Shown here piece by piece: positions 4,197 to 29,556 of a stretch of DNA of 30,380 bases. How positions within the stretch are numbered: position 1 is the stretch's first letter; every line of letters starts with the position of its first letter. Origin of the DNA: a virus; the IMG/VR virus record IMGVR_UViG_3300025840_000168, positions 1-30,380 of that record. One strand, written 5' to 3'. A program made the translations under genes and the position numbers. Under the pieces are notes generated by a model. It had not been told where the DNA came from, did no database searches, and was given only the letters and a program-made list of their open reading frames with translations.

Positions 4197-4511
4197 TTAG
4201 TAGCCGATGATCTCAGCCTTGACGACTGAGCTGGTTACCGCTGACGGGGTAAACTTCAGCACCGCTTTGGGCACTCTATAGTCAACATAAATCACCGTGA
4301 GGTCATTGGCTGTGACCGCTGCGGTACCAAGCAGACGGTCAGTGTCATCTTGGTCAGCATAGTAGAGTGACATCGTCCCGCCGACGCTCGCCGAGTGAAG
4401 ATAGGCAACCGCGCCGCGCTTGCTGTGTGATGTTGACTCAAGAGAAAGAAGCTCAACCTCATCGGTAGAGCTCGTGGTGACTTGGGTGGTCTTGCCGCGT
4501 GGTTGCGCCAT
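4197..4511 (-). CDS. hypothetical small virion protein
   Basis: A 104-residue protein, Ser/Thr/Val-rich and probably all-beta, with the ribosome binding site TGGAGGA nine bases before its ATG. It is the first gene after a 160-base intergenic segment that can form a compact RNA structure, so its translation may be controlled by that element. There are no membrane segments or Cys motifs. The small size, beta-rich composition and position next to the tail-tip protein suggest a fibre or decoration component. I do not recognise the family. Confidence 0.65.
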   Translation of the reverse strand: MAQPRGKTTQVTTSSTDEVELLSLESTSHSKRGAVAYLHSASVGGTMSLYYADQDDTDRLLGTAAVTANDLTVIYVDYRVPKAVLKFTPSAVTSSVVKAEIIGY

Positions 4512-4543
4512 AATGTCCTCCAGTTGCTTGCTGTTATTTCGAC

Positions 4544-4665
4544 TGGTTGCACCGAGCTGGATTCGGCAACCATTATCTAGAGCGCTACGATCAAGGCTGC
4601 TCCGACGGGGGGATCAAACCGTCATCGACGCTCACCTCAATCGTAGCACATAAGATCCCCCTGTC
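4544..4665 (-). promoter_or_regulatory. structured intergenic RNA with interlocked stems (pseudoknot order)
   Basis: In minus-strand RNA, stem A pairs 4654-4665 with 4604-4615 (8 bp, one A-C mismatch, 3 bp). Stem B pairs 4634-4649 with 4582-4597: 16 consecutive pairs, four of them G-U. The order is A, B, A', B', so the stems interlock as in a pseudoknot or exclude each other. A small hairpin (4620-4630) lies in the connecting loop. A third hairpin pairs 4544-4550 with 4566-4572 plus 4553-4555 with 4563-4565, just upstream of the ribosome binding site of the next gene. In plus-strand RNA the four G-U positions of stem B would be A-C mismatches, so the fold is specific to the transcribed strand. 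It lacks a U-tract, so it is not a simple terminator. Function unknown. Confidence 0.55.
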
Positions 4666-4671
4666 TATGCA

Positions 4672-7600
4672 TCAACGGTCAAGTTGAGCCGAGAAAATTG
4701 AGCCGATGCCTCGAATGACATTACCCGCTTTAAAAGTTGCTCCGAGATTGTCTTTGACTCTGATTCGAATTTGGTCACCCGCTTCAAGTGCAATAGGGCC
4801 ATCGAAGTGAGCGACCCCAGGTTGATCAATCGCGCCATAGTGCTGAGTGTCTAAGCGCCCGAACTGGTAAAGCGATGATCCATTCTTATCGAGATGAACC
4901 TGAAAATCGGTCGCTGAGCCGGTCGAGTAGAAGTAAATTGTCGTCTTAATCTCATAGATGCCTGACACCGGAGCCGTGGCGATGCCGGTTGAATTGTCGT
5001 ACCAGCTCCCAATGTCTACGAACTCTGTATCGAAGATCACGACATACTCAGAGATTGCCGTCGAGAGTGTAACGTTTGCGCTCTGATACGCATTGAACTT
5101 TGGCGAGCCCACTTCCATCTTTACGTCATCCACGAAAGTCGTCGTTGACGCACCCGTGCGAGCAATAAAGACACGAGCAAAGCGAGCATTGGTTGGTGCT
5201 GCGATTGCTCCGCCGATGCGCAGCCAACTCGTTGTGAGTGCTTTGGTCTGCAACACATTATTCGAGACCGTGCTTTTGGCGTAGTTATAGAAACTCACTG
5301 AGACTTCACCGCTAGGGCTGCCACTCGTTTTCTTCATCGCTGCGGTGATGAGATAGACCTCACCCTCAGCGATTGGGATGTAATCGCTCACGATGGCCGT
5401 TGATGCTCGTGTTGATGAACTTGGAAAGCGCAACGCATAAAGACCCTCGAGCACCAAGCTCTCACTCACGCGCTCAAGGTCGGTGTTCCAAGTCCCTGAA
5501 CTCATCGCCCAGTTGTCTGGTGGGTAGGCGTTGGCATGACTCCAAGCCTCAAAGCCACCATTGCGCAATCTATCAAAGCCGGTCGTGATGGTCTCACTCA
5601 ACTGCTTCGGACCTACTGAGCCAAGCCGAGCAATATCAAGCGTGCCAGCGACGCCACTGCCATCGGTCTCAACGTTTGAGAGCGCAGCATTGCGCGGGCT
5701 CTGAATCCCACCGTCGGCAGTCGTCACAATTGCGCCGGTGACTGAATCGTAACCGATGCTGGTGATGGTATCGGAAGGCAGCTCAATCTCTTCAACCGTT
5801 GAGACTGGCATTGATGAGCCATCACCGCGCATCATGACACCACGACCAATCTCAATCTCAAAGGAGCTTGATTGACTGGTGATGGTCGGTGGCAATGTAA
5901 AAGATGGTATGCCGCCACCCATGAAGGTCAGCGTTGGCCGCACCGGTATCAAAGCAACGTCAGGAATATCTACCACGTCGGCAAGCGATACCGCTGGTGC
6001 TGTTGAGAGTGAAACCTGACACGCGGTGAACTTCACTGAAGGCACATCGCTCGTGATGTCGAACTCTTTCTCAACGATCTCGAACTTGGCGGTGATGCTT
6101 ATTGAGTCATCATCGAAGTCAGCACCAGAGAGCAAGAGCTTGTCAGTCTCGAAGTCAACAAAGTCGCCAAGCTGAAGGTCAGCGTGACGCAGTGACGTCC
6201 TAAACTCGACAGTGATGGCACCGTTGGCGAATCGAGTGAGCACTTCATCAGAGAAGCGCTTGAGAATCGTGCAATCGATGATCTCCATGCCATCGGCACG
6301 ATCGGGATCATCAGCCTCATCAGTGGCGATGGTGCTGCCTGAGACCTGCGTGACGTTGAACTTGGCGTTTTGCACTGCCTTAATTGAATCACCGCCAGCA
6401 CTGCCATCGTCGTCAGTGTTGGCAAAGTGTGCCACTCGCTCCATCACGCCAGCATCGTGATAGTTGATACTCACGGCAGAGTTGCACTCACCAATCTGAG
6501 CATCGGTTGCTGACAATTTAGCAAAAGCCAACGTTGCCACTCTAGACGCGCTCAGAGCCGCGTGCGTTGCTGGTGTATGCAAGTAGCCATTGGTAGGCGA
6601 TGCGGTCACTGCAATCGAACCTCGCACGCCTGAGAAGCCTGTAATCATACCACCATCAAGCTCAACGGTGTACGTGGTAGGGTCAAAGAGCGTCGCACTG
6701 CCCACAAAGCTAATCGGTGCGAGATGCCCAGCGGTGACTTTGAGCGTTTTCTCTCCAAAGGTTGCCAGTGATGTCGAATCTTTGCGCCGATAGGTTGCCG
6801 ACTGTTGTGAGTTCTCAATGCCGACGATGATTTGATTGACTACACCACCAAAAGCGTTGGTTTGCTCAAGCTCGTCGTAGTCGTCAGCGGTCAATGTGCG
6901 AGCGCTCGCAGTCGTTGAGTCGTAGAGCTTCGCTCTGATTGAGCCAGTCTCATCAACGTAGAACGTGATGCCGCAAAACTGCGCGATCTCATCGATGATT
7001 GGACGCACTGAGACAAACTTCTCATCAGCCGTTGGTGCGTGCCCAATTGATTCGGTTGTCCCATAGTAGCGACCAGTGCGACCAAGACCCACCGGTGAGA
7101 AGGTTGTATCACTGCCGTTGGCCTCTGCCGAACGTGCCATGTCTGCAAGATGTTCATAGTAGGGCTTGATGCTCACTGACGTCATGTTGAAGTGAGAAAT
7201 TGACGTTGAGTAATTGGTGGGGTCGAAGTCTGCCGCTGTCGTTGCAGTCGTCTCAGCACCGTACTCGATGAGCTGCTTGGCTACCTCGAGCGGATGCTTG
7301 CTGATAAACTTGCCGCCGAACTTGCGACGCTCCAAGTTGAAGATCTCATCAGCGAGCTTGATCACGATGACACCATTGCCAGGCAACACTTCAGTGATGA
7401 CACCGACAAAGACCGTTAGGTAGTCACCGATAGCAACGCCATCAAAGCCGAGTTTGATGTAGACTTTGGCGTTAAAAAGCGTTTTGCGCCCTGCCCAGTT
7501 GCGGATGGTACCGTCATCGATGACTTCAAGTGTCATCGTACCACTCGAGGTCTTGCGCGTGATTGGGTCAACTTTGCGCGAGATGTTGGTCACACTGCTC

Positions 7601-7767
7601 AAGATGGCGTTGTTGGACTCACTCAAGCCGCTCAAGATGCCGCCAAAGTTGTGGATTCGGTATGTGCCGATAGGATTGGCATCAAGGTCGAAGTCAGCGA
7701 CCACCACCGGCGTCTGACCGCCCTGCGTTGCGGCATCTCGAAACGAAGCAGAGAGTGACAAGACCAT
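4672..7767 (-). CDS. tail tip / central hub protein with galactose-binding-like and C1q-like domains
   Basis: A 1031-residue protein. Residues 1 to about 600 look like a tail-hub or tail-associated protein that follows the distal tail gene in siphoviruses. Residues about 733-888 (starting LRNGGFEAW, ending VDDVKMEVG) match the plan of a CBM4/9-like jelly roll, and about 905-1031 look like a C1q/TNF-like head (FDTEFVDIGSWYD, APVSGIYEI, GDQIRIRV). Such C-terminal domains usually trimerise and bind surface sugars or proteins. I chose the ATG at 7767: it leaves four bases after the preceding stop and has AGGA upstream. A longer frame opening at 7875 would overlap the previous gene by about 100 bases and adds a basic, unlikely leader. 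Cell-contact function is inferred from domains and from the place after the tape measure gene. Confidence 0.75.
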   Translation of the reverse strand: MVLSLSASFRDAATQGGQTPVVVADFDLDANPIGTYRIHNFGGILSGLSESNNAILSSVTNISRKVDPITRKTSSGTMTLEVIDDGTIRNWAGRKTLFNAKVYIKLGFDGVAIGDYLTVFVGVITEVLPGNGVIVIKLADEIFNLERRKFGGKFISKHPLEVAKQLIEYGAETTATTAADFDPTNYSTSISHFNMTSVSIKPYYEHLADMARSAEANGSDTTFSPVGLGRTGRYYGTTESIGHAPTADEKFVSVRPIIDEIAQFCGITFYVDETGSIRAKLYDSTTASARTLTADDYDELEQTNAFGGVVNQIIVGIENSQQSATYRRKDSTSLATFGEKTLKVTAGHLAPISFVGSATLFDPTTYTVELDGGMITGFSGVRGSIAVTASPTNGYLHTPATHAALSASRVATLAFAKLSATDAQIGECNSAVSINYHDAGVMERVAHFANTDDDGSAGGDSIKAVQNAKFNVTQVSGSTIATDEADDPDRADGMEIIDCTILKRFSDEVLTRFANGAITVEFRTSLRHADLQLGDFVDFETDKLLLSGADFDDDSISITAKFEIVEKEFDITSDVPSVKFTACQVSLSTAPAVSLADVVDIPDVALIPVRPTLTFMGGGIPSFTLPPTITSQSSSFEIEIGRGVMMRGDGSSMPVSTVEEIELPSDTITSIGYDSVTGAIVTTADGGIQSPRNAALSNVETDGSGVAGTLDIARLGSVGPKQLSETITTGFDRLRNGGFEAWSHANAYPPDNWAMSSGTWNTDLERVSESLVLEGLYALRFPSSSTRASTAIVSDYIPIAEGEVYLITAAMKKTSGSPSGEVSVSFYNYAKSTVSNNVLQTKALTTSWLRIGGAIAAPTNARFARVFIARTGASTTTFVDDVKMEVGSPKFNAYQSANVTLSTAISEYVVIFDTEFVDIGSWYDNSTGIATAPVSGIYEIKTTIYFYSTGSATDFQVHLDKNGSSLYQFGRLDTQHYGAIDQPGVAHFDGPIALEAGDQIRIRVKDNLGATFKAGNVIRGIGSIFSAQLDR

Positions 7768-7771
7768 TGGC

Positions 7772-8719
7772 TTAAGTTCCTGAGCTCTTGAATGGTGGCT
7801 GCTCGATGAGTGACGTACCAAAGACGCGCTCAATCGGTCCTTGCAGTGGCAACGATAGCGTTGGCGACTCTGCAAGCATCAAGTAAGCATCGGGCGAAGC
7901 ATTGGACGGATTCTCAATCCAGACGATCGGCTTGGTGAAGTCATCAGAGTCATCAAAAGCCGCCTCAATCGCTGCCAGCTCGTTGGAGTCGGTGACGCTC
8001 TTGTTGATGGTTCTGAGTGCTTTGCCTCGGTGGTACGTGTAGCGCTGCGTCAATCCGCTCTTGCTTGCAAAGTCACTGACAAGCCCGGTCTCACTTTTGT
8101 CATCAAAAGGAAGGTTGGGATTGTGCATCAACTGACGACGCTGGCCAACCCATACCTCACCGATGGCCGGCTTGATTGTGGTGGTACCGTCTACATTTTG
8201 AAGCCTGACATTAAGCTTGCGGTTGCTGGTGCCAAGTGTCACGCGCTGCGGATAACTCGGTTTTGCGCCGCTGGTGTCGTAGAGGAAGGTGAAGACTAGC
8301 CGCGAGTTATCACCCGATGCGACGGTGATGGTGTCCGAGATTGTCTTGGTAACCGCTGCACCGTTAGCGACTAGATCAACAGTGATATCCGAGCCGTCAT
8401 TGGTAACATCGCCGAAGTTGTGACCCATAATCACCACCGTGTCAAAAGTGACATCAGAGCCAAAGGCAAGACGGAATGCTGGCGACGTGCGTGCGGTATC
8501 TGATGCCACCGTGAGCGCCCCGATGCGGTCATAGGCTCTCACGCGGGCATTGCTCACCACCGTCTCATCAGTGTCATCGGTGGCACCATTATACGCATCA
8601 AACCAACCACTCGATGCTTTAGTGATCTTGTCCGAGTTGTTGGTTGCCACCATCATCGGCTTGTCAGCGTCGTATGCGGTTTGCTCCCATGTCGCCATGT
8701 CTACCAGTGTCACGCTCAT
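7772..8719 (-). CDS. distal tail-like minor tail protein
   Basis: A 315-residue protein encoded directly after the tape measure gene (TGATG overlap) and before the hub gene, the usual place of the distal tail protein that joins the tail tube to the tip. The sequence is beta-rich with few charged clusters; a GEVWVGQRRQL segment followed by PNLPFDD resembles minor tail proteins of aquatic siphoviruses. No enzymatic motif is visible. The assignment rests on gene order and general character rather than on a diagnostic motif, so minor tail protein is certain enough but the precise Dit role is tentative. Confidence 0.65.
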   Translation of the reverse strand: MSVTLVDMATWEQTAYDADKPMMVATNNSDKITKASSGWFDAYNGATDDTDETVVSNARVRAYDRIGALTVASDTARTSPAFRLAFGSDVTFDTVVIMGHNFGDVTNDGSDITVDLVANGAAVTKTISDTITVASGDNSRLVFTFLYDTSGAKPSYPQRVTLGTSNRKLNVRLQNVDGTTTIKPAIGEVWVGQRRQLMHNPNLPFDDKSETGLVSDFASKSGLTQRYTYHRGKALRTINKSVTDSNELAAIEAAFDDSDDFTKPIVWIENPSNASPDAYLMLAESPTLSLPLQGPIERVFGTSLIEQPPFKSSGT

Positions 8720-10266
8720 CAGATCGCCCCTTGTGCCTGGAGGTCACGCATCGCGGGCATGATTGTCGAGCGCACATACTTCGCGACCTCTGTTTTATTC
8801 GGCAGTGCCTCGCTTCTGATGGTGATGTTAACGCCTCCAAGCGATGGAACTGGCCCAACGGTGCCACCGTTAGCAAAGCGCCCGCTCGAGTTCACACCAT
8901 CCATATTGGAGAACATCTGCCGCATTGCCTCAACTTGGTTGGTGTTCATGACGTACTCACCAGGCATCAAGAGAGCGGGCACTGAATCTTGACCAGACCG
9001 CCCACCGCGTACCATGCCACCCTCGGCCATGCCGGGCAGTTTAGCAAGTAAGCCCTCGAAGAGACCAAGCACCACACTCGTCACACCGACAATCGCAGCC
9101 GGGCCAAGTAGCGCCGCCGATGAGCCTGCCTTGGCTGCCGAGTCAATGGCGAACGCCATGACCGACTTACGCACAAAGTCGATGATCATTTGAAGCGATT
9201 GAGTAAGCGTAGCACTTAGCGCCGCACCGAATCGATTTTGGCCATCTTCAGCACTCGCAAAAGCAACACCGAAAGCGGTGCCAATCGTGTCAGCCGCTTC
9301 GACTGCTTGCGTTGCTGCGTCAGTGTTTAGCTCAACGATTGAGTTGTTGAGCTCTTTGACCTTTTCTGATGACTTCTCAGCACTTTCACCGAGTTCCTCA
9401 ACTGGTTTGTTGGCTCCAGCGGTAGCAGTGCCAAGTGCCTGGATGGCTTTGGTGCTAACGTCTCCGATGCTCTTGGTGATGGTGGTGGCTACCTTGCCAA
9501 CCTGGAACTCGAGAGCCGCTTGCTCTTCTGCGATTCGATGCGTTGCCTCAACCGACTCATCTGCCGCCTCAAGAAACGCCATCGAGAGACCATCAGCCGC
9601 TATCGCTGCGTCACTCAATCCCTCTTTGAGAGAGTCGCTCATAAACGGAATACCAGCGGCAAGCTCGTTAACCTTCCTGAGTAGCTCACTCACACCGAAA
9701 GCAATAGCACCGATGACTGAATTGACGCCTGCCTTGAGTGCTTCCCAAGACATCTGGAAGAAAGCGACAATGCGCGTTGCATACTGAATCGATGGTGCAA
9801 GCACGTTGACCATCGCGTTGGCTGCGTCTTGTAGAAACTCAACGATGCCAATCGCAAGCATCTGCTGATTGGCTGCCAGGAAGTCACGAGCACCCTGAAT
9901 CATCGGCTTAAATTGCTCAGTCACCGCAATGAAAGCGTTGAGTAAGACGTCACCGATACGGGCTGAGAGTGCATTGACTTCATTGGCTTGCTCTCTGAAG
10001 GACCGCGTGAGCTGGTCACTCTCACCTCTGAACTCAATGGCACGCTCAACAAAGCCAATCATGGCATCTCGAGCGGTCAAGATGAGGTCTTTGGTTGCCA
10101 TCAAGCCAGTTGCAGCCTGTGAGAATGCTTCTAGAGCTTTACCACCGATTGAGCCAAACTTGGCGATGGTGCTTGAGACGGTCTTGGCAGTCTTGCCGAT
10201 GCCCTTGATGGCCGCGCTGGCTTCATCTCTGGCGGTGATGGTGACTGGTACATCATACTGAGCCAT
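8719..10266 (-). CDS. tape measure protein
   Basis: A 515-residue protein that sets tail length and is ejected during DNA delivery. It begins with a typical tape measure start (VTITARDEASAAIKGIG) and continues with long Ala-rich helices and several hydrophobic segments (about 137-158, 176-192, 378-408). The C-terminal part has the Gly-rich motif common in this family: GGMVRGGRSGQDSVPALL followed by MPGEYVMN. It follows the tail chaperone genes with a TAATG overlap, as expected. At 515 residues it is short for a siphovirus, so the tail should be short for this group, if the usual length relation holds. There are no peptidase or lysozyme motifs. Confidence 0.85.
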   Translation of the reverse strand: MAQYDVPVTITARDEASAAIKGIGKTAKTVSSTIAKFGSIGGKALEAFSQAATGLMATKDLILTARDAMIGFVERAIEFRGESDQLTRSFREQANEVNALSARIGDVLLNAFIAVTEQFKPMIQGARDFLAANQQMLAIGIVEFLQDAANAMVNVLAPSIQYATRIVAFFQMSWEALKAGVNSVIGAIAFGVSELLRKVNELAAGIPFMSDSLKEGLSDAAIAADGLSMAFLEAADESVEATHRIAEEQAALEFQVGKVATTITKSIGDVSTKAIQALGTATAGANKPVEELGESAEKSSEKVKELNNSIVELNTDAATQAVEAADTIGTAFGVAFASAEDGQNRFGAALSATLTQSLQMIIDFVRKSVMAFAIDSAAKAGSSAALLGPAAIVGVTSVVLGLFEGLLAKLPGMAEGGMVRGGRSGQDSVPALLMPGEYVMNTNQVEAMRQMFSNMDGVNSSGRFANGGTVGPVPSLGGVNITIRSEALPNKTEVAKYVRSTIMPAMRDLQAQGAI

Positions 10267-11020
10267 TATCTGCGCCTCGCTTTCTTCATCGCTGCATCAT
10301 GCTCGGCTTGAGCTCGTCTTTGACGCTCTGCCTTCATGCCATCGATCTCGGTGCTGATGGTGTCGATTGCTTCAAACACAAACGCGGGCTCATCAAGCAG
10401 ACTCGATGATGCGTAGGGTAGGACACCGTAGGCTTTCCACTCGCGGTACCAACCGAGCAAGAGGTCAACTTCAGCATCAAGCTGAGACCAAGGACACCGG
10501 CGAAGGCTAGGAGCGAACTCGAAGCCAAGCGACTCGTTTGGCTTCTCGCAGCCTCTTGCTGCTCTGAACTGGTCACCCTCAGCATAGTCCTCGCCTTTGC
10601 ATTGTGAGCATCCCCAATCGAGGGCTTGGTGCCCGCTCGCTAAGAAGCGAGCGCCAAGCCTTAGCCTTTTTTTAGCCCTGACCTCAGCGTTGAGATCTCA
10701 GTGACTGCTGCATAGGCTTCATCGATGAGCGCTTGCTCGGCCCTATCCCAAAGCTGCTCGCCATCGCTTATCTCACGGTCAAGAATATCCAAGCACCGCT
10801 CAGCACGCACCACCCTCGTCTTGATGATGCGCTCAATCGATGCTTGCGCCTTGTGGACGTCAACCTTGCCATCACTCTTAATCGCTGAGCGATGCACCGC
10901 TCGAAGCTCTCCGCCAGTCATTGGTGCTAAGTGAAGCACAATCTGCTCGCTTTCTTCACGGTCTCGGTTGTTGTCCCACTCTGGCACGTAGCGCCGCACG
11001 TCTTCTTGCTTGATATCCAT
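10266..11020 (-). CDS. tail assembly chaperone, -1 frameshift fusion (lambda GT-like)
   Basis: A -1 shift at the run of seven A (10667-10673) joins the first 118 codons of the short chaperone to a 133-codon extension that ends at 10266, giving about 251 residues. The extension frame has no stop between the slip site and 10266 and reads sensibly: CSQC, a second Cys at RGC, then RRCPWSQLD and a helical LLLGWYREWKAYGVLP segment, and a charged C-terminus. It has no ATG or ribosome binding site near its beginning, so it is probably made only by frameshifting. The location between the tail tube gene and the tape measure gene is where lambda G/GT and related chaperones lie; the long form recruits tube protein to the tape measure. 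The CxxC and CP residues suggest a zinc-binding knuckle. Confidence 0.8.
10623..10673 (-). promoter_or_regulatory. -1 programmed ribosomal frameshift signal
   Basis: On the minus strand the slippery run is seven A (10667-10673), read in zero frame as CTA AAA AAA GGC. Six bases later comes a strong two-part hairpin: outer arms GGCTTGG (10654-10660) and CCAAGCC (10623-10629), inner arms GCTCGC (10647-10652) and GCGAGC (10635-10640), loop TTCTTA. The zero-frame stop TAA lies in the spacer. Slip site, spacer of six and stimulatory hairpin are the three parts of a classical -1 signal, and the -1 frame is open for 133 codons. Confidence 0.85.
10661..11020 (-). CDS. tail assembly chaperone, short form (lambda G-like)
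   Basis: A 119-residue, highly charged helical protein (many Asp, Glu, Arg) starting with MDIKQEDVRRYVPEW after an AAGGGGA ribosome binding site. It is encoded just after the tail tube gene and before the tape measure gene, the standard place of the short tail chaperone. Its last codons read Leu-Lys-Lys-Gly-stop, with the two Lys codons lying in a run of seven A that is the slip site for the longer product. The N-terminal region contains LAPMTGGELRAVHRSAI, similar in style to phage tail chaperones that start with a tube-like binding helix. Normal termination should give most of the product; the shifted form is the minor one. Confidence 0.8.
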   Translation of the reverse strand: MDIKQEDVRRYVPEWDNNRDREESEQIVLHLAPMTGGELRAVHRSAIKSDGKVDVHKAQASIERIIKTRVVRAERCLDILDREISDGEQLWDRAEQALIDEAYAAVTEISTLRSGLKKG

Positions 11021-16226: not shown

Positions 16227-16278
16227 GCGGTCTGCTCGACCGCTATTCGTATCGTATCAGAGCACTATGCCCGGTCAA
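16227..16278 (-). promoter_or_regulatory. candidate internal promoter with 5' hairpin before the capsid block
   Basis: On the minus strand TTGACC (16273-16278) and TACGAT (16251-16256) lie 16 bases apart and resemble a -35/-10 pair. Just downstream, at about the expected transcript start, is a perfect 6-bp hairpin with a 5-base loop: GCGGTC (16238-16243) with GACCGC (16227-16232). The 95-base gap that holds it is the only sizeable one in the head gene block and precedes the scaffold, decoration and capsid genes, which need high expression. A 5'-end hairpin can protect mRNA. The match to consensus is only moderate. Confidence 0.35.
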
Positions 16279-22330: not shown

Positions 22331-22542
22331 CAATCAGCCTCCACATCGAAAGCGTCATAGAGCGCCGCGACCTCTTGAGGGATGTACATCTGAACCTCAG
22401 TCCTCGGTCCCCATAATTGACGCAGAGAGTCATAAGCATCTTCGAGACTATCATGCAGCGCCGACACTGTGCGCCAGTGATGACCTGGCCCTGGTCGGTA
22501 CTCGAGCACGAGCCACGGCTTTTTCTTCACCCCTCCGAGCAT
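22330..22542 (-). CDS. small hypothetical protein before the resolvase gene
   Basis: A 70-residue protein with an AGGGGGAG ribosome binding site directly before its ATG. It contains aromatic residues, an Asp/Leu-rich helical section (LHDSLEDAYDSLRQLWG) and an acidic end. No family is recognised. It is joined to the resolvase-like gene by a TGATG overlap, so they are probably translated together. No membrane segment or Cys motif is present. Its start is overlapped by the end of a 49-codon frame of doubtful status. Confidence 0.6.
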   Translation of the reverse strand: MLGGVKKKPWLVLEYRPGPGHHWRTVSALHDSLEDAYDSLRQLWGPRTEVQMYIPQEVAALYDAFDVEAD

Positions 22543-22676
22543 AGCTCCCCCTTATGCTCAATCCTGCCTTTGAGATCCGCCGTGGTCAACGCCACCAGTA
22601 ATTTGATGCGATTAAAGAGTTGACGTTGACCGGTCGGCGAACTCCGACGGCACCAGCATCGCACACTTCGCACCAT
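22527..22676 (-). CDS. possible 49-residue small gene in the gap after 22692-22913
   Basis: The 150-base gap between two small genes holds a 49-codon frame from ATG 22676 that ends 16 bases inside the next gene. It is in the same frame as the upstream gene, just after its stop. Its second half (KLLVALTTADLKGRIEHKG) reads like a small helical phage protein, and a CWC pair lies near the start. No good ribosome binding site is seen, so translation would depend on coupling. A competing GTG frame of 27 codons begins at 22695. Treat as uncertain. Confidence 0.25.
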   Translation of the reverse strand: MVRSVRCWCRRSSPTGQRQLFNRIKLLVALTTADLKGRIEHKGELCSEG

Positions 22677-22691
22677 CAACGCCAGCGGTGC

Positions 22692-22913
22692 TCACAATTC
22701 TTTCAATGGCTCGAATCGATAGAGCGCCCAAAGCTCGGTGCCGTCCTTTGTCTCACCAGCGAGCTCGAAGCTGATTGAGTCGTGATCGTTCACGAGCTGG
22801 GCAAACTCCCACCGACGGTAGAGCCCTGGTATTCTCCGCCACTGGCTCAAGTCCATTGGACCGGCATTGCGAAAGGGATCATCTTTGCTCTTGAGTAAAT
22901 CTTTGATTGGCAT
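22692..22913 (-). CDS. hypothetical protein, first gene after the repeat/terminator region
   Basis: A 73-residue protein with an ideal AGGAGGTGA ribosome binding site before its ATG. It begins with a Lys/Asp-rich part (MPIKDLLKSKDDPF) and has a probable beta section (SISFELAG then TELWALYRFEPL). It is not recognised. It is the first gene leftward of the terminator at about 22.98 kb and so may be the start of the packaging and head transcription unit; a weak promoter might lie in the 60 bases upstream (TTGAGA about 15 bases before TAGTTA), not convincing. Confidence 0.6.
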   Translation of the reverse strand: MPIKDLLKSKDDPFRNAGPMDLSQWRRIPGLYRRWEFAQLVNDHDSISFELAGETKDGTELWALYRFEPLKEL

Positions 22914-22971
22914 CTCTTCACCTCCTACTAACTAAACGCGGATTTCATCTCTCAAGTGGGACACCGCACGG

Positions 22972-22995
22972 ATAAAAAGCACCCCGAAACGGGAT
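22972..22995 (-). terminator. candidate rho-independent terminator for the primase operon
   Basis: On the minus strand 22981-22995 forms a 6-bp stem (one G-T pair) with a TTT loop, CCCG TTT CGGG at its core, followed two bases later by TTTTT (22974-22978). It lies downstream of the primase gene and its G-rich repeats, and upstream of the ribosome binding site of the 73-residue gene. The stem is short, so termination may be partial. Confidence 0.5.
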
Positions 22996-23007
22996 CAATT
23001 TAGGCAT

Positions 23008-23189
23008 GGGCAAATAGGGGGGCAAAGGGGCACACCCTAAAGGGTGTGTGCCCCCCTTGCCCCCTTGGACACGGAAAGGGGCAAATAAGGGGGCAAATAG
23101 GGGCAAGCCCTCTTGTAAGTCATTGAAAACACACGGCCAGTCATTTGCCCCCCTTTGCCCTAAAGGGGGCAAACCCCCCTTTGCCCCCC
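23008..23189. repeat. GGGGCAAA repeat cluster, candidate origin or G-quadruplex region
   Basis: Variants of G3-6CAAA (or the complement) occur at 23008, 23017, 23078, 23089 and 23100 on the plus strand, with GGGGCAC at 23027, and in the other direction at 23144, 23154 and 23180, plus a direct unit at 23165. The cluster contains perfect hairpins: CACACCCT with AGGGTGTG at 23031-23048, and GGGGGCAAA (23165-23173) with TTTGCCCCC (23180-23188). Both strands have G-runs suited to quadruplexes. It starts at the stop codon of the primase-helicase. Iteron-like origin is an inference from the repeats and the neighbour gene. It could also slow transcription before the terminator. No convincing gene lies in 22914-23188. 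Confidence 0.6.
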
Positions 23190-25671: not shown

Positions 25672-26109
25672 TCACTCTGCAATCTTCCCGAACTCTTCCC
25701 AATCCGCAAACCGCTCAACCTGCATAAAGGTAGAGCCCTTGTACTGAAAGCAATCAATCTGGATGTCATGCCCATGCTCGCAGTGAAAGCGCAACTTGGT
25801 CGAGTAGCGCCCATCACTCGGCGAGTCAGTATGATCTTCAACTTTAATCAAATGCAAATACTCACCTTCGCACGCCGGGCATGTGATTTTCCTGGTATCG
25901 GTATCACCAAAGCTAAAGTCCCCAATCATCTCACTGAGGTCATAGTGCTTTGCGGGTCTATCAAGCGTATTAAGACCGCGTACGATCAACGTGCGTATGA
26001 GCTCTGAGCGTGATGCACCTTTGCAATTTGCCGGAAGATAGTCCTCGGACTCATCAATATCTTTCAAAAGCTCATCATCGAGACTGAATCCAACTATTGG
26101 TTTTCCCAT
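25672..26109 (-). CDS. RHH-type protein with zinc-ribbon-like C-terminus (RHH2)
   Basis: A 145-residue protein. Residues 1-50 have the ribbon-helix-helix plan: KPIVGFSLDDELLKDID, then ASRSELIRTLIVRGLNTL. The second half has CPAC (Cys77, Cys80) and FHCEHGH (Cys110, His112, His114), possible zinc ligands of a zinc-ribbon-like module. It is the first gene leftward of the divergent control region, with AAGGAG before its ATG, so it is a good candidate for the regulator of that region. Direct repeats there are possible operators. Zinc binding and repression are inferred. The zinc module might sense a ligand or interact with a partner. Confidence 0.65.
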   Translation of the reverse strand: MGKPIVGFSLDDELLKDIDESEDYLPANCKGASRSELIRTLIVRGLNTLDRPAKHYDLSEMIGDFSFGDTDTRKITCPACEGEYLHLIKVEDHTDSPSDGRYSTKLRFHCEHGHDIQIDCFQYKGSTFMQVERFADWEEFGKIAE

Positions 26110-27222: not shown

Positions 27223-27885
27223 ATGGTTAAGATAACAAGAACCAGTGACACCAGTCACCAGCATCTCAAAGTGCTGACATACGGAGCAGCAGGCTCGGGC
27301 AAGACCACGCTCTGCGCCACTGCCAAAGACTGCATCATCATCTCGGCTGAGAGCGGGCTGCTAAGCCTGCGAGGTTACGACCTGCCAGTCATCGAGGTGA
27401 CGAGCCTGGTGGAAGTCCAAGAGGCTTACAAGTACTTGACTGAGAGCGATGAGGCTAAGTCTTACCGGTGGGTCTGCATCGACTCGCTCAGCGAGATTGC
27501 GGAGGTCGTGCTTGCTGCCGAGAAGAAGGCAAGCAAAGACCCACGCAAGGCATACGGCGAGCTGCAAGACCGCATGGCTCAGCTCATCAGAGCTTTTCGG
27601 GACTTGCCGCGCAACGTGTTTATGACTGCCAAAGCTGAGCACATCCAAGACGAGAGTGGCGCGATGCTCTGGATGCCGACGATGCCCGGCAAAAAGCTCC
27701 CTCAGTCATTGCCTTACTTCTTTGATGAGGTCTTTGCGATGCGAGTCAAGGAAGTCGATGGCGAGACCAAGAGAGCCCTTCAGACGTCAAGTGATGGCAT
27801 CTGGACGGCAAAGGATAGAAGCGGCGCTCTGGCGCAATTTGAAGAACCCAACCTAGAAGCAATCTACAACAAAATCATTGGATAA
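27223..27885 (+). CDS. Sak4-like RecA-fold ATPase (single-strand annealing recombinase)
   Basis: A 220-residue ATPase of the AAA_24/Sak4 type, compact RecA-core proteins used by phages for recombination. Walker A is GAAGSGKTT (21-29), Walker B lies in WVCIDSLSE (Asp87), and an NVFMTAK segment (131-137) follows, typical of this family. It lacks the extra domains of full RecA. The following gene is a DUF669 protein with SSB-like features, a common partner. Together with the later nuclease this forms a phage recombination set that can join or repair replicating DNA. Annealing activity is family knowledge, not shown here. Confidence 0.8.
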   Translation: MVKITRTSDTSHQHLKVLTYGAAGSGKTTLCATAKDCIIISAESGLLSLRGYDLPVIEVTSLVEVQEAYKYLTESDEAKSYRWVCIDSLSEIAEVVLAAEKKASKDPRKAYGELQDRMAQLIRAFRDLPRNVFMTAKAEHIQDESGAMLWMPTMPGKKLPQSLPYFFDEVFAMRVKEVDGETKRALQTSSDGIWTAKDRSGALAQFEEPNLEAIYNKIIG

Positions 27886-27898
27886 AGGAAAAACCATC

Positions 27899-28345
27899 AT
27901 GGCAACAATTAACTTCAACGCAAACAACTATGACTTTTCACAAGAAGACCGCCCAGCATATGAACCACTGCCGGAGGGCTACTATAACGTGATCGCCATC
28001 GAATCAGAGATTCGCGAGACAAAAGCGGGCACTGGTAATTACCTCCAGTTCAAGTTTGAGGTCCTCGATGGTGCGCATAAAGGCCGCTACATCTGGGACC
28101 GCTTCAACCTGCGCAACCCGAACCCCAAAGCGGTCGAGATTGCACAAGAGAACCTGGCTAGGTTCTGCCAGTCTGCTGGACTCAAGAGCATCAGCGACTC
28201 TTTTGAGCTGCATCACCGCCCGGTCAAAGTGAAGGTCGCGCATCGTGAGTGGAACGGTCAGACTCAAACTGAGATTAAGGGCTACCGCAAAGCAGACCTT
28301 GGCAATGCTTTCCAAGCACCACCAAGCAATGACGCCCCTTTCTGA
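27899..28345 (+). CDS. DUF669 single-strand-DNA-binding-like protein
   Basis: A 148-residue protein with the DUF669 start MATINFNANNYDF, then PLPEGYYNVIAIESEIRETKAGTGNYLQFKFEVLDGAHKGR and RFNLRNPN, an OB-fold-like set of strands. The C-terminus NDAPF looks like the acidic tip of bacterial SSB proteins, which recruit partners. The ATG at 27899 has AAAGGA upstream; a start seven codons earlier would overlap the ATPase gene. DUF669 proteins are often next to Sak4 ATPases and probably coat single-stranded DNA. The overlap of 17 bases with the following gene suggests coupling. Confidence 0.8.
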   Translation: MATINFNANNYDFSQEDRPAYEPLPEGYYNVIAIESEIRETKAGTGNYLQFKFEVLDGAHKGRYIWDRFNLRNPNPKAVEIAQENLARFCQSAGLKSISDSFELHHRPVKVKVAHREWNGQTQTEIKGYRKADLGNAFQAPPSNDAPF

Positions 28346-28733
28346 TAATCAAATAATCGCGCTGGCCCGGTCTGCTCCGGTGGTCTCGGGCTGGCGCTTT
28401 CTTTTGGATGTCTTCAAACTTCTATTTCGGGATCTAACAATGAGAAAACCAAGCGATGAAGATCTACTATACTTCGGAGCACTCAAGCGGCTGACGGTCG
28501 ATTTCGAGTGTCTGAGAGTAAGCATTGAGGTCAGAGCAAGAAACAATCGACCAGAGCACATCATGAAAGGCACACGGCTCAGGAGCTGGTACACGTATGA
28601 CCTAAGAATCGGTGACGATACTTGGAGCGGCAAAGACCTCAACGAACTGATGGAACAAGCATACACGCACCATGGCAAACCTAACCCCAAAATCGGAGAG
28701 CTCTACAATGCGAACAACGCTGCAAATTCTTGA
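28329..28733 (+). CDS. hypothetical protein between SSB-like and nuclease genes
   Basis: A 134-residue protein if it starts at the ATG at 28329 inside the end of the SSB-like gene; an ATG at 28440 gives a 97-residue version. The main body (LKRLTVDFECLRVSIEVRARN, RLRSWYTYDLRIGDDTWSGK, LNELMEQAYTHHG) suggests an alpha/beta fold. There is a hydrophobic patch at residues 18-35, not a clear membrane span. I recognise no family. Overlaps on both sides place it in the recombination operon. Confidence 0.6.
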   Translation: MTPLSDNQIIALARSAPVVSGWRFLLDVFKLLFRDLTMRKPSDEDLLYFGALKRLTVDFECLRVSIEVRARNNRPEHIMKGTRLRSWYTYDLRIGDDTWSGKDLNELMEQAYTHHGKPNPKIGELYNANNAANS

Positions 28734-29556
28734 TGATAGGATGGAACGCGAGCAGGACACCAGCCACCGCCCTCACCTTGGAGCATCTGCCATCGGTGGC
28801 GAGTGCGAGCGCAAAACCTGGTACTCGTTTCGGTGGGCTCTGGAGCCCGACTTTACCGCTGACGTGCTGCGCAAGTTTCGCGATGGTCATGAGAGTGAAG
28901 AGTTGATCGCCCGCGAGCTTGAGCAAGTCGTTGAGCTGATGGGTAGGCAAGCCCGCTTTCAAGATGGTCACTTTGGTGGCTCAGTCGATGGCATCATCAG
29001 AAGCGGGCTCATCGAAGCACCAGACACGCCGCACATATGGGAACACAAAGCAGTCAGCGACAAGCGCTTTGACGAGCTGCATCGATTGCGCGAGCGTCAC
29101 GCTCTGCTCGATGATGAGGGCTCGGTGCTTCTTAAATGGATGCCCACGTACTACGCGCAGGCTCAGATTTACATGTACAAGTTGAAGATTGATTGGCACT
29201 ACATGACCGTCGCATCGGCGGGCTCTCGTCGGCTGCTCAGTCTGCGCACGCCGCTCGATGAGTTCTATGCTCGAGAGATTGAAGACAAGGCACACCGCAT
29301 CATCAAATCACTTGAGGCACCGCGCAAGGTCTCGCCTGACTTCGATTTCTGGTTGTGTCGCTTCTGCGACTATGCCGGGCTTTGTCACGGCAATAACCAG
29401 CCTGACAAGTCATGCCGCTCGTGTCGCTATGCTGAAGCGCTCACCGATGGTCGCTGGCGCTGCATGTTCTTTGAGAGTGAGCTGGATGATGAGAAGCAGA
29501 AACGAGGCTGTGAAGAACACCGCCGATTTTTAGACGGTGGCACCATTCTCGATTAG
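28708..29556 (+). CDS. Cas4/AddB-like PD-(D/E)XK nuclease with probable Fe-S cluster
   Basis: A 282-residue RecB-family nuclease. The catalytic core has GSVDGII (Asp94), IWEHKAV (Glu112, Lys114) and QAQIYMY (Gln151). Cys33 near the N-terminus (GECERKTWY) and CRFCDYAGLC (Cys217, Cys220, Cys226) form the split C...CxxC-x5-C pattern that holds a 4Fe-4S cluster in Cas4 and AddB. An additional C-terminal group, CRSC, C252 and C268 with His271, looks like a separate zinc site. I chose ATG 28708 with GGAGAG upstream, overlapping the prior gene by 26 bases. It probably makes 3' ends for the annealing ATPase. No other CRISPR genes are present, so an adaptation role is unlikely. Confidence 0.78.
   Translation: MRTTLQILDDRMEREQDTSHRPHLGASAIGGECERKTWYSFRWALEPDFTADVLRKFRDGHESEELIARELEQVVELMGRQARFQDGHFGGSVDGIIRSGLIEAPDTPHIWEHKAVSDKRFDELHRLRERHALLDDEGSVLLKWMPTYYAQAQIYMYKLKIDWHYMTVASAGSRRLLSLRTPLDEFYAREIEDKAHRIIKSLEAPRKVSPDFDFWLCRFCDYAGLCHGNNQPDKSCRSCRYAEALTDGRWRCMFFESELDDEKQKRGCEEHRRFLDGGTILD

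Follow-up and report, generated by a model that had tools for sequence, protein, structure and literature searches.

A conserved intergenic block behind a phage tail-tip gene borders an exchanged C1q-like domain and may hold an internal late promoter

Our data indicate that a 91-nt block directly behind the tail-tip gene of an uncultivated phage is a conserved intergenic cassette that would combine two roles, an internal late promoter and a right-hand anchor for the exchange of the C1q-like domain that ends the tail-tip protein. We give this combined reading, which rests on comparison of sequences, a probability of roughly 60%. The block lies within the window, i.e., the whole stretch of 30,380 nt analysed here, a 30-kb virus record (IMGVR_UViG_3300025840_000168) that is a partial genome. 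Its role as a border is the best-supported fact about the block and lies beyond what a first, sequence-only reading of this DNA could see. That reading had described a compact RNA fold in the minus-strand gap between the tail-tip stop codon (TGA, 4672-4674) and the ATG (4511) of a 104-aa gene. The features are listed in Table 1.

Results

Conservation of the intergenic block

We found that a pattern of stem B and stem A (Table 1) matched six further IMG/VR contigs, including L007, which shows no difference from the window in the tail-tip gene or the gap. The alignment set, i.e., the window, L006, L008, L009, L010, and L011, comes from one phage group and amounts effectively to five or six sequences. 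The block is 91 nt long in all six, and pairwise identity within it is 88-100%, with 88-97% over the first 33 nt and 98-100% over the last 58 nt, which carry at most one change. Across pairs, the 300 nt upstream of the block are 41-95% identical, and the 50 nt downstream are 100% identical for the same type or 63-69% for a different type; in block flanks of different type, identity falls to 41-69%. L006 and L010 are 100% identical over the 50 nt downstream and 47% identical over the 300 nt upstream. The sequence-only reading had proposed a functional non-coding segment here, and this held, with the block kept in every relative found; its downstream edge falls where the 14-bp core of stem B ends.

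Three further pattern scans of viral contigs returned the same six contigs together with chance matches inside unrelated sequence, and the genome contigs scanned for block patterns gave no match or chance matches. The phage and plasmid records searched yielded short matches of 20-27 nt alone (E at least 0.4), and the tail-tip protein had no match among the phage records searched. The terminases nearest to that of the window are about 50% identical and belong to phages of varied hosts. In the distant relative L053, whose gene ahead of the tail tip is 31% identical, the ORFs show quite different genes following the tail tip. Every record that holds the block has one copy of it, the records being partial genomes. 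Just behind the block (4532-4573, minus strand), a very short frame from ATGGTTG reads MVAESSSVQPVEI in the window and MVDDLSSLQPAEI followed by a stop in L010, with several silent changes.

Table 1. Features of the block, its surroundings, and the second promoter-like site (positions in the window)
Feature	Position	Strand	Evidence or remark
Tail-tip gene with C-terminal C1q-like domain	4672..7770	minus	Pfam C1q, 8.5e-07
Exchangeable C1q-like domain cassette, about 144 codons	4675..5105	minus	Sharp pairwise identity drops at both ends
Left border of cassette, conserved GATGACGTAAAGATGG coding DDVKM	5115..5130	minus	Alignment
Conserved 91-nt block	4584..4674	minus	Tail-tip TGA (4672-4674) to end of stem B 14-bp core (...CGTAGC)
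Putative -35, TAGACA	4662..4667	minus	Promoter scan; invariant in all copies
Putative extended -10, TGCTACGAT, 16-nt spacer	4640..4648	minus	Same motif at second site; invariant
Predicted transcription start	4633	minus	7 nt after -10, at foot of leader hairpin; from spacing
Alternative leader fold, GAGCG/CGCUC + CGAU/AUCG	4580..4633	minus	Promoter-born RNA; -20.4 kcal/mol, z -2.0
Stem A, GACAGGGGGAUC with GAUCCCCCCGUC	4665-4654 with 4615-4604	minus	8+3 bp, one A.C mismatch
Stem B, GUGCUACGAUUGAGGU with GCCUUGAUCGUAGCGC	4649-4634 with 4597-4582	minus	16 bp including four G.U pairs
Stem A 5' arm, GACAGGGGGATC	4654..4665	minus	Overlaps putative promoter -35/spacer; two variable positions
Stem B 5' arm, GTGCTACGATTGAGGT	4634..4649	minus	Contains putative -10
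Stem A 3' arm, GATCCCCCCGTC	4604..4615	minus	Invariant in all copies
Stem B 3' arm, GCCTTGATCGTAGCGC	4582..4597	minus	Final 2 nt outside conserved core
Small hairpin in connecting loop, CGUC-GAU-GACG	4620..4630	minus	Constrained fold; invariant in all copies
Third hairpin, before ribosome binding site of next gene	4545..4571	minus	Fold and alignment
Ribosome binding site GGAGG of 104-aa gene (4197-4511)	4517..4521	minus	5 nt before ATG (4511)
Second putative late promoter, TTGACC-N16-TGATACGAT	16251..16278	minus	Kept in relative G001
Leader hairpin of second promoter, GCGGUC-GAGCA-GACCGC	16227..16243	minus	GCGAUC/GAUUGC in G001

The block borders an exchanged C1q-like domain

The tail-tip genes of the aligned sequences have two backbones (window, L008, and L011; L010, L006, and L009) and three C-terminal types, referred to here as a (window and L010), b (L008 and L011), and c (L006 and L009). 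Codon-wise identity between the window and L008 is 78-98% until about 144 codons before the stop codon, 31-61% in the final domain, and 94-100% in and behind the block; for the window against L008 and L011, identity runs at 80-82%, then 54%, then 100%. On the other backbone, the profile of L010 against L006 is of the same kind: identity stays at 91-100% ahead of the break, apart from 78% in the first 20-codon bin, falls to 31-61% across the last domain, and is 100% over the 50 nt past the block. The codon-wise breakpoints lie at the stretch coding DDVKME on the left and at the stop codon and block on the right. Matches of the exchanged unit to the C1q family exceed the curated cut-off for the window and L008 (type b) and fall below it for L010 and L006. 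These comparisons make it highly likely that the block is conserved and forms the right-hand border of the exchanged domain. Because it is near-identical in phages that otherwise differ in sequence, the block would act as a right-hand homology anchor for domain exchange.

We propose that the C1q-like domain is swapped as one unit at the block, probably through Sak4-type recombination genes of the phage itself. Genes for a Sak4-like annealing protein, an SSB (DUF669), and a Cas4-type exonuclease lie in a row at 27223-29556 (plus strand), a plausible phage recombination module, and these genes of the window would suit such exchanges. In a test for the target of a diversity-generating retroelement, in which a hairpin behind a variable gene goes with a reverse transcriptase and adenine-directed changes, the variation proved to be replacement of the whole domain, and no reverse transcriptase was found among the genes scanned in the window, itself a partial genome. 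Another exchanged module is seen in the tape-measure gene (8719-10266, minus strand), which is 34-51% identical in relatives whose adjacent gene (7772-8719) is 86-97% identical.

Several contigs stop at or close to the block, and in one record, of 32 kb, the sequence breaks off immediately before the stop codon. Assemblers would be expected to produce such ends when a single shared stretch has more than one set of neighbours within a sample. Together with the clear cassette exchange that ends at the block, these contig ends are consistent with a recombination linker only, whose similarity would come from frequent exchange without selection on a function of its own. Recombination alone, however, explains neither the 16-bp complementarity nor the promoter match described below, nor why similarity between the window and L010 stops downstream at the stem B core though both flanks have diverged. 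We consider this explanation quite improbable.

A putative late promoter in the block

A generic scan returned TAGACA-N16-TACGAT with an extended -10 TG at 4667-4640 on the minus strand; a single match of this kind in 700 bases is unremarkable alone. It agrees with 9 of 12 consensus positions plus the TG. A strict scan of both strands of the window (spacer of 16-18 nt, at least 4/6 in each hexamer, score of at least 10) left two sites only, at 4667-4640 and 16278-16251, both in minus-strand gaps directly at a stop codon; laxer spacing added a few matches inside genes. The motif TNGAC-N14-TGNTACGAT, defined after inspection of both sites, has two occurrences in the window, whereas 100 shuffles gave none. 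The relative G001 has TTGACC-N16-TGCTACGAT at the second site; both boxes are kept, whereas much of the spacer is different. The leader hairpin there differs by one compensatory change from G-C to A-U and one change from G-C to G-U. Leader hairpins begin 7-8 nt past the -10 at both putative promoters. Furthermore, all six variable positions in the 5' half of the block fall outside the -35 and the extended -10. Conservation of the 58-nt leader half exceeds what a promoter alone would need.

These data make it fairly probable that the block holds an internal late promoter, TAGACA-N16-TGCTACGAT. The promoter would drive the downstream small fibre-like genes from a start at about 4633, which would place the foot of a stable leader hairpin at the 5' end of the transcript. 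The closing stem of this leader can persist as GAGC/GCUC in L010 and L006 despite the different downstream sequence. Control of the downstream fibre-like gene had been suggested from the fold by the sequence-only reading, and the block probably does bear on fibre gene expression. The 5' arms of the stems coincide with the putative promoter.

Two interleaved stems exceed chance on both strands

The two long stems are present, interleaved on the minus strand in the order A5-B5-A3-B3, and go beyond chance. At -51.1 kcal/mol, the best interleaved pair of stems outscores all 500 shuffles, whose mean is -27.4 and whose best is -40.5, and a 16-bp helix was reached in none of 2000 shuffles, the best of which gave 15. 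RNAfold gives z = -3.1 for the 151-nt region. The small hairpin in the connecting loop and the third hairpin were both confirmed, as was the absence of a U-tract. A terminator match is also absent, and an intrinsic terminator, which calls for a G+C hairpin with a U-run, is ruled out. No tRNA was found, which rules out a tRNA or tRNA-derived attachment site. By estimated energy, the pseudoknot (about -41.5 kcal/mol) and stem B with a nested inner stem (-41.4 kcal/mol) are level in the window, leaving aside any steric strain between two stems that each exceed one helical turn; the comparison is similar in the other copies except L008, where the nested fold is better by about 4 kcal/mol. Stem B is, by these predictions, robust in all copies. 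Strong predicted folding is also seen in a gap near the end of the gene at 22334 (22334-23188, minus strand), with dense GGGGGCAAA / TTTGCCCCC repeats, and a strong hairpin, GGCTTGGcGCTCGCT...AGCGAGCgggcACCAAGCC, occupies the gap between two tail-region genes at 10586-10660 (minus strand).

The claim that the fold is specific to the minus strand stood only in part. Stem B is indeed reduced to 8 bp on the plus strand, but stem A gains there, forming 12 continuous bp as its A.C mismatch becomes G.U; the interleaved pair scores -41.8, and RNAfold z is -3.9 for the plus strand and -3.5 for the minus strand. The further step, from strand specificity to RNA rather than DNA function, was not borne out: the plus strand is about equally exceptional, pairs changed on both sides number zero in the six sequences, and the 5' arms coincide with promoter-like sequence, which would be a DNA function.

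The search for compensatory changes proposed with the fold was thus negative, and variation is also too low to reject the structure. Pairing survives at three of the variable pairs, through a change from A-U to G-U in stem A, from G-U to A-U in stem B, and from U-A to U-G in the third hairpin. Another four pairs do not hold in every copy: stems A and B have five variable pairs, of which three are broken in some copies, and L010 and L006 lose one CG pair of the third hairpin. All four differences in the stem B arms are compatible with G.U pairing on the minus strand and lean towards RNA. Overall, the pairing evidence for an RNA fold is suggestive rather than decisive. None of the 4227 Rfam covariance models matched at the gathering score or at E 5. 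HDV-like ribozymes have two interleaved stems in the same strand order and a hairpin in the connecting loop. Despite this similar topology, we reject an HDV-like ribozyme: the details misfit (stem B of 14-16 bp, a 4-nt linker, and a 3-nt hairpin loop), and no Rfam model matched at E 5.

We asked whether the block could be a purely RNA element, i.e., an interleaved late-mRNA fold behind the tail-tip stop that would protect the message before it, stop ribosomes from running on, or regulate the gene that follows, with the promoter match being coincidental. The stem complementarity above all shuffles, the end of the conserved block at the stem B core, and the G.U-compatible arm differences, in which A-to-G (two copies) and G-to-A changes retain pairing, all point this way. 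However, besides the broken pairs and the lack of any pair altered on both sides, the 5' arms vary within the block and the 3' arms do not, the plus strand folds equally exceptionally, and the promoter motif recurs at a second, conserved gap. We regard a purely RNA element as possible but doubtful.

The strength of the inverted repeats on both strands and their overlap with the putative promoter also suit a DNA-level control site, in which the two repeats would be operator half-sites of a phage or host regulator across the promoter, e.g., for looping. Their centres are about 50-52 bp apart, near five helical turns, and a repressor-like gene lies within the window (25672-26109). Such a site is unlikely: the arm sequences have no further copies at other gaps, the arm differences lean to minus-strand G.U pairing, and the sequence between the arms is as invariant as the arms.

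Putative roles in read-through and promoter-born RNA

The 5' arms of stems A and B lie on the promoter strand and the 3' arms in the transcribed leader; therefore, only read-through RNA, which continues from the tail-tip gene into the leader, could form the two stems. There, a strong hairpin or pseudoknot would stand 6-10 nt past the tail-tip stop codon as a likely barrier or 3' shield. We suggest only tentatively that stem B or the pseudoknot acts in read-through RNA. The idea of a switch between two alternative folds survives in changed form, with read-through and promoter-born RNA folding differently.

The same placement 6-10 nt past UGA, with a frame open for 26 codons in the window, would fit a stimulatory pseudoknot for stop-codon readthrough or frameshifting that adds 26 residues to the tail-tip protein. 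This is highly improbable, as all six substitutions in the frame alter the amino acid (C/G, R/T, I/V, L/F, C/Y, E/K), a slippery site was not seen, and the following gene has its own ribosome binding site.

In its fullest form, our reading is that the -35/-10 strand of the promoter is complementary to its own leader, such that the two transcripts of the locus would take up mutually exclusive folds: read-through RNA would make an interlocked fold closing the tail-tip message and promoter-born RNA would carry a protective leader, while the block would also be a fixed anchor for receptor-binding domain swaps. Each newly gained domain would therefore land before working expression signals. We offer this full form as speculation that is unlikely to hold in every part.

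Discussion

Our data suggest that the conserved cassette behind the tail-tip gene would serve as both promoter and anchor. By analogy, its closest known kind is the PeSL (promoter early stem-loop) cassette, and the block appears to work like one. PeSLs are mobile regulatory cassettes of T4-like phages that are reported to mediate gene shuffling between related phages (PMC4503421, citing Arbiol 2010 and Comeau 2014). Like a PeSL as described there, the block is a short intergenic promoter (here putative) and stem-loop common to phages with different neighbouring genes, and flanking sequence is exchanged between relatives at it. In contrast to that description, the phage is not T4-like as far as seen, the putative promoter is late rather than early, a terminator is absent (no U-tract), and the stems join promoter and leader. 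Furthermore, the block borders one receptor-binding-type domain and is present in a single copy per record (partial genomes), whereas PeSLs are many in their shuffling regions. Because the terminator and multiplicity of a PeSL are absent here, we do not file the block as a PeSL.

Two other systems share part of its design. Stem-loops at the 5' end of the leader stabilise bacterial mRNAs of the ompA/papA type (references in PMC3997798), and RNA from both putative promoters would likewise have its 5' end at, or adjacent to, the base of a stable hairpin. By contrast, the leader of the block is unusually invariant, and the start sites here are predicted. The autoregulatory pseudoknot of T4 gene 32 (PMC3014915) resembles the predicted fold in being an mRNA pseudoknot of a phage that precedes a start codon by some tens of nt. 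Unlike it, the block has stems of 11-16 bp and lacks both A+U-rich repeats over the ribosome binding site and an A+U-rich stretch between that site and the predicted pseudoknot, and the gene downstream is fibre-like, with no family match, rather than one for an ssDNA-binding protein (PMC3014915).

Overall, our data tie a non-coding regulatory block to a clearly visible exchange of a likely receptor-binding domain in uncultivated phages. Its sequence also offers an exact DNA tag with which metagenomes can be searched for further domain variants of this kind. If the combined reading is true, the idea behind PeSLs, that regulatory cassettes act as recombination anchors, would extend past T4-like phages, to late genes and to a likely host-range module.
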